Of a stretch of DNA of 64,000 nt, positions 35,514 through 35,972 are shown in pieces. Positions within the stretch are counted from its first letter, which is position 1; each line of letters starts with the position of its first letter. The DNA comes from a bacterium (GTDB taxonomy: Bacteria > Cyanobacteriota > Vampirovibrionia > Gastranaerophilales > Gastranaerophilaceae). Position numbers and translations under genes: made by a program. The notes beneath the pieces were generated by a model. That model was not told the origin of the DNA. It saw only the letters and a list, made by a program, of their open reading frames with translations, and searched no databases. Location of the stretch: the NCBI GenBank assembly GCA_017559905.1, contig JAFYQF010000025.1, forward strand, positions 62,001-126,000. Reading direction: 5' to 3'.

Positions 35514-35972
35514 TTATTTTTCTGGTTGCAAATATCTCTTAAACAATTTTTGTAATTTTTCTGAGAACTTTGCTTTTTGAGATTTATCAGCATCATTCAT
35601 GAAAGATTCATAGAAATTTTCGCCATACTCTTTACCATATGTTTCATTCCAAAGACCCCAAACAGACGCTGCATTGTACTCATCAACGACATTTAAGACT
35701 TTTTCAAATAGCTTATCATCAGTTCCTAGCCCATCAATAGCTTTGTGCATATTAGAAACAATACCAACTGGATGAGCACTCAAAATTTGACGTGTAACGT
35801 ATGTAACATTTTCATTTTGATTACAAATAGTGTCAGTCCACTCAACCCCAACCATGCTACCAAATATAGGCTCTATGTCACCTTTTCTATAATGCACACG
35901 CACAGTATCAGCTTTTGCGTTACTTCCTAAACCTGTATTGTTTCCTGAAAATTGTACTCCATCAATACCCAT
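35514..35972 (-). CDS. Annexin-repeat-like small protein with FxG leader
   Basis: A 152-residue protein. The N-terminus MGIDGVQFSGNN is a short form of the leader seen on other proteins here. From about residue 75 to 148 the sequence follows an annexin repeat: H-K-A-I-D-GLGTDDKLFEKVL, then YGKEYGENFYES, the spacing from GLGT to the Tyr/Phe-Gly being the same as in eukaryotic annexins (29 residues to the Gly), followed by a helical KLQKLFKRYL end. In annexins GxGT and a downstream acidic residue bind calcium; here the acidic residue is shifted by one. Only one repeat is present. AAGGAG precedes the ATG; a TATAAT and a TCATA microsatellite lie upstream. Confidence 0.7.
   Translation of the reverse strand: MGIDGVQFSGNNTGLGSNAKADTVRVHYRKGDIEPIFGSMVGVEWTDTICNQNENVTYVTRQILSAHPVGIVSNMHKAIDGLGTDDKLFEKVLNVVDEYNAASVWGLWNETYGKEYGENFYESFMNDADKSQKAKFSEKLQKLFKRYLQPEK

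Follow-up and report, generated by a model that had tools for sequence, protein, structure and literature searches.

The window analysed here, a stretch of 64,000 nucleotides, comes from a genome assembly of 1.84 Mb in 26 contigs, and the bacterium belongs to the Melainabacteria, the gut-dwelling, non-photosynthetic relatives of cyanobacteria. Among its open reading frames (ORFs) there is an intact minus-strand frame of 152 codons that begins with ATG, just as the first-pass annotation had placed it, and both strings which that annotation quoted, AIDGLGTDDKLFEKVLNVV and YGKEYGENFYE, are found in the translation. Since the frame is uninterrupted and preceded by a Shine-Dalgarno sequence, ORF 35514-35972 is a real gene (its features are listed in the table below). 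As read from the sequence, its neighbours are presumably a membrane proton-pumping pyrophosphatase and, on the other side, rpsB/tsf, and no toxin or delivery gene adjoins it in the window ORF list. Two intergenic features were also observed. Positions 36060-36085, between the gene and rpsB, carry short tandem ATCAT units. Positions 35335-35477 form an imperfect palindromic element with the inverted repeats GTCATTCT...AGAATGAC, which has a sub-threshold Rfam match to RF02634 (29.9 vs 100 bits) and partial short copies elsewhere in its own genome.

Features of the annexin-like gene, in window positions
Feature	Position	Strand	Basis
Gene for single-repeat annexin-like protein, 152 aa	35514..35972	-	ORF list; Shine-Dalgarno
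Shine-Dalgarno AGGAG	35982..35986	-	sequence; 9 nt upstream of ATG
Predicted disordered N-terminal segment, residues 1-65, including the 'VQFSG' FxG leader	35778..35972	-	AlphaFold pLDDT; homologue coverage
Divergent annexin repeat, residues 66-148 (approximate)	35529..35777	-	sequence and profile searches; predicted fold
GLGTD, residues 81-85, A/B loop, putative first half of type II Ca2+ site	35718..35732	-	
YGKEYG, residues 112-117, C/D turn with 4-residue insertion	35622..35639	-	hhalign A1 vs A5; L044
D127, D/E-loop acid, equivalent of the bidentate Glu/Asp Ca2+ ligand	35592..35594	-	alignment columns

The annexin repeat is the building block of calcium-dependent membrane-binding proteins of animals and plants. 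When the window protein was compared on its own with the Pfam repeat model PF00191, there was no match at E ≤ 10, the curated cut-off (25 bits) was not reached, and direct annotation with NCBIfam and Pfam returned nothing relevant. As a single phmmer query against the PDB, the same protein retrieved annexins almost exclusively, namely 20 of the 21 sequences at E ≤ 10 (best E 2.3e-5). The profile of alignment A1, i.e., the repeat region of relatives collected from genomes of the same order, reached annexin VI at E 4.9e-27, a value that owes much to the summing of repeats: taken singly, the best of them has an i-Evalue of about 0.01. An independent profile was then available from five same-order proteins with clear PF00191 repeats (L038, L039, L040, L042 and L046). 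Among the 861 stop-to-stop ORFs of the window, its sole match was ORF 35514-35972 (E 4.9e-6), and in a shuffle control it gave the window protein 22.4 bits, against 13.1 bits for the best of 5000 shuffles. Alignment A5, a close variant of this five-protein profile, is unquestionably annexin (E 2.7e-88 to annexin VI); searched over the whole own genome in six frames, it matched the window repeat at E 2.0e-5, and the profile–profile comparison of A1 with A5 by hhalign gave a probability of 98.3 and E 2.2e-14. Moreover, L044, a member of the same subfamily as the window repeat, passes the Pfam cut-off with 25.7 bits. Only one repeat was found in the 152 residues, that is to say, the protein does not have the four or eight repeats of a full annexin.

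The structure was predicted with AlphaFold2 from a two-sequence alignment (the window protein and L037). The model has five helices, A–E, at residues 68-79, 86-95, 101-116, 120-127 and 130-148; the pLDDT is 70-85 in these domain helices, under 50 for residues 1-66 and 53 for the entire protein, and the repeat domain modelled alone has a mean pLDDT of 74 and a pTM of 0.60. In each of two Foldseek searches the best 50 rows were annexins or annexin-A2 fusion constructs, with probability up to 1.00, query-normalised TM up to 0.63 and E 0.05-0.5, none of the matches listed having E < 0.001. E-values of this moderate size are in keeping with one small domain and few aligned sequences, and the uniform annexin-only list is a stronger structural argument than the E-values are. 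VIA-align gave Z up to 9.1 and up to 10.1 against annexins, values to be read with the program's own note that Z near 10 is still possible for common helical arrangements. The five-helix repeat fold is thus seen in a predicted model. Taken together, the profile comparisons and this model confirm that residues 66-148 or so form a divergent annexin repeat, a true homologue rather than a look-alike. The first-pass proposal that this gut bacterium has a lone repeat of the annexin type, which the Pfam check of the protein alone failed to bear out, therefore holds through the PDB search, the relative-based profiles, the shuffles and the predicted fold. The protein belongs to a large annexin-like family of its bacterial lineage, most of which escapes the standard annexin model.

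The type II Ca2+ site of an annexin repeat combines a GxGT loop with an acidic residue of the D/E loop. The window protein has a complete GLGTD loop, whose GT pair is invariant in A1. In a MAFFT alignment of 82 non-identical repeats, 52 have D in the acid column, 28 have E and 2 have neither, and D127 of the window protein occupies this column. Compared with most annexins and Pfam-positive repeats, the relatives carry a 4-residue insertion around YGKEYG, between helices C and D, so that the second half of the site lies at T+43 instead of T+39. The earlier claim of a 29-residue distance from GLGT to the aromatic-Gly pair stands, T84 to Y112-G113 being 28-29 residues, which we take to be the annexin-repeat spacing; what it lacked was the insertion, and with it the shifted acid. 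The register of D127 is fixed by L044, which has no insertion and whose acid sits at the usual T+39. Reading the sequence without a gap would put S123 at T+39 and abolish the Ca2+ site; this reading was rejected on account of L044 and because phmmer (to annexin XII), the five-protein core profile, MAFFT and hhalign all place D127 in the acid column. The assignment of D127 as a ligand position depends on accepting the insertion, and once it is accepted, both parts of a putative type II site, GLGTD and D127, are present in the alignment. Some relatives (for example L088, L089, L090 and L092) have lost GxGT and kept the acid; the acid could accordingly play a structural role in such repeats, which would weaken the calcium argument somewhat.

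The repeat is not an isolated occurrence. Of 292 genomes sampled from the whole phylum, 105 had window-type repeats, and all 105 belong to the bacterial family of the window genome; that genome itself carries the repeat at six places, the window copy included. With the A5 profile at E ≤ 1e-4, 77 of 386 genomes match, and 75 of those are in the same family. The earlier remark that bacterial cases are few does not apply to this lineage, where the repeats are common. In the genomes searched there is no full-length orthologue of the window protein, and its closest relatives are 46-49% identical across the repeat. Stand-alone repeat proteins have 150-300 aa, and other relatives are proteins of about 400 aa with coiled-coil-like middle parts. 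Larger architectures also occur. In L088:2997-5405 (+) and L089:1851-4295 (-), a single protein unites LysM and Amidase_3 with Phage_lysozyme and an annexin-like repeat, and no signal peptide can be seen; L078 and L080 are large proteins with EF-hand-like and LysM segments; and L055 has an HExxH motif and weak M13/M90 metallopeptidase matches. L039:454-2514 (+), from a bacterium of the same family, encodes 686 aa with four strong annexin repeats (PF00191 E 5.7e-56), all four having GxGTD and the D/E-loop acid, and L042 of the same order has four repeats by profile.

Several further observations were made on the relatives. Many of the roughly 400-aa proteins (L022, L024, L025, L028, L029, L032, L033 and L035) share an N-terminal motif around TNFGGDxQ, and these N-termini differ from the leader of the window protein. 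In the own genome, at G000:C21:144107 and 145754 (L070:3130-4491 and 4621-7431, -), two adjacent paralogues each have, after an annexin-like repeat, a domain that shows an NCW...H...SN pattern, and the larger paralogue begins with an EF-hand-like motif; a papain- or calpain-like protease domain, suspected by eye from NCW...H...SND, was not confirmed by Pfam or PDB profile search. An annexin-like gene, L071:4406-5170 (-), lies in a cluster of genes for ribosomal proteins, between those resembling rpsH and rplF, and adjoins a matrixin-type metallopeptidase gene (L071:3867-4436; PF00413, E 1.7e-12). Several annexin-like genes of the own genome adjoin translation genes, which we read as rpsB/tsf, tuf and nusA. 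Within the window, a 587-aa protein with YD/MORN-like stretches is encoded at 42592-44355 (-), and its C-terminal part resembles L054 (pairwise BLAST E 1e-8), which has a weak annexin-like stretch without GxGT (PF00191 20.7 bits). As a second annexin repeat of the window this candidate was rejected, for the family profile finds none there and the link through L054 is indirect.

As for the role of the protein, we lean towards the view that the protein, a flexible tail of about 65 residues joined to one divergent repeat, most likely serves as a peripheral module of the membrane or envelope and acts in a Ca2+-dependent way. In the five-helix repeat the GLGTD loop and D127 would together coordinate one type II Ca2+ ion, and through this ion the repeat would dock reversibly on acidic phospholipid head groups. 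A lone repeat would bind membranes only weakly, and useful avidity would call for oligomerisation, the flexible tail or a partner repeat. The gene, its homology, the predicted fold, the conserved Ca2+ ligand positions, the spread of the family and its fusions are computed results, and Ca2+ binding, lipid binding, location and partner are inferred. The window repeat, one of the six paralogues, is part of a lineage-wide expansion in one gut Melainabacteria family. Larger relatives bear this type of repeat alongside LysM, amidase, lysozyme or protease-like parts, which suggests a general module for Ca2+-dependent docking at the membrane or envelope.

The main rival, which we regard as possible though less probable, keeps the annexin fold and assigns it to Ca2+-independent docking, either between proteins or in a structural role, the GxGT loop serving only for helix capping. 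It would account for the GxGT-less relatives that have kept the rest of the repeat, for the altered C/D region and for the repeats embedded in large multidomain proteins, and one repeat would make only a small membrane-binding unit. Against it, the window protein has an unbroken GLGTD loop, and 80 of the 82 aligned repeats have D or E in the acid column, though the acid is also kept in members without GxGT.

The first-pass annotation had suggested, from a single repeat joined to an FxG leader, that a gut bacterium might direct this protein at host membranes. That the protein is secreted and aimed at host-cell membranes is improbable in our judgement. The lineage is indeed gut-dwelling, annexins have an affinity for acidic phospholipids, phosphatidylserine among them (PMC10882027), and delivery roles have been proposed for some toxin-fused bacterial annexins by Kodavali et al. 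(PMC3894181). However, residues 1-66 contain no hydrophobic signal peptide recognisable by eye; homologues align only from about residue 41, and for most of the disordered residues 1-65 no relatives were found. Of 68 annexin-like relatives, only 32 have F-x(0-1)-G within their first 60 residues (a raw count), and in differing contexts, so that by sequence the FxG leader is not a consistent feature of the family. Because there is no visible signal peptide, the leader is inconsistent and the adjoining genes are the pyrophosphatase and rpsB/tsf instead of delivery genes, host-membrane targeting is unsupported, and no host link was found in the analysis. Type III secretion was considered as an export route and rejected, as no injectisome genes surround the two extra FlhA-like proteins. 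These two proteins, L093:6396-7871 (+) and L094:6864-8588 (-), match PF00771, the FlhA family, in its C-terminal half only, and export genes are likewise absent from their surroundings; the full-length FlhA is separate, at G000:C6:39957-41930. That a generic helical protein resembles annexin by accident, an idea to which the silence of PF00191 and the moderate Foldseek E-values might point, is highly improbable: it is contradicted by the shuffle control with the sole match in the window and by the profile–profile E-value, and the whole-genome match, the L044 score and the annexin-like predicted structure also speak against it.

Returning to Ca2+-dependent docking by the annexin-like repeat, its wider meaning can be stated tentatively. 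Annexins are usually presented as eukaryotic. It is conceivable, if rather doubtful at present, that one family of gut Melainabacteria evolved an annexin system of its own, acting as Ca2+-switched docking at the envelope or outside the cell; its parts would be several repeats per genome, single- and four-repeat proteins, and fusions to peptidoglycan hydrolases, EF-hands and protease-like domains. If this is true, one bacterial order would contain annexins with a single repeat side by side with annexins of four, and could serve for studying how the annexin tetrad arose. A gut lineage rich in annexin-type repeats, in single- and four-repeat forms with conserved calcium ligands, makes both the function of bacterial annexins and the origin of the four-repeat form directly testable with small proteins that can be expressed.

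In comparison with known systems, bacterial annexins as a kind are already known. A 2024 review still speaks of prokaryotic annexins as a 'possible' discovery and holds the class name AnxF in abeyance (PMC10882027). In 2014 bacterial annexins, among them single-repeat ones such as a Cytophaga hutchinsonii protein, were described by Kodavali et al. (PMC3894181) in other phyla (Bacteroidetes/Chlorobi, Gemmatimonadetes, Proteobacteria and Actinobacteria), some with protease and toxin fusions. A text search of the open-licence literature found no paper on a Melainabacteria annexin as a bacterial protein; four papers contain both words, apparently, to judge by their titles, in other contexts. The Melainabacteria clade thus looks unreported, and the clade, its insertion-bearing subfamily and several of the architectures appear new, an earlier mention outside the open-licence literature being possible.

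The window protein agrees with the Pfam PF00191 repeat in the order and lengths of the five helices, the GxGTD loop, the D/E-loop acid and the aromatic-Gly at T+28/+29, and differs from it in the 4-residue C/D insertion, in lying below Pfam detection when taken alone and in having a single repeat. With the eukaryotic four-repeat annexins (for example annexin A5, A6 and XII) it shares the repeat fold and the positions of the Ca2+ site, whereas these have four (or eight) repeats per chain instead of one; L039 and L042, of the same order, have four. It resembles the bacterial single-repeat annexins of 2014 in its single domain with GxGTD. The bacterial annexins of that paper (PMC3894181) likewise have single or multiple repeats, a conserved GxGTD and metalloprotease-like architectures, and the Melainabacteria clade, its family-wide expansion and LysM-amidase-lysozyme fusions do not occur in the sections consulted. 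Moreover, the acid of the D/E turn was found there to be less conserved, while in the Melainabacteria repeats it is nearly universal.
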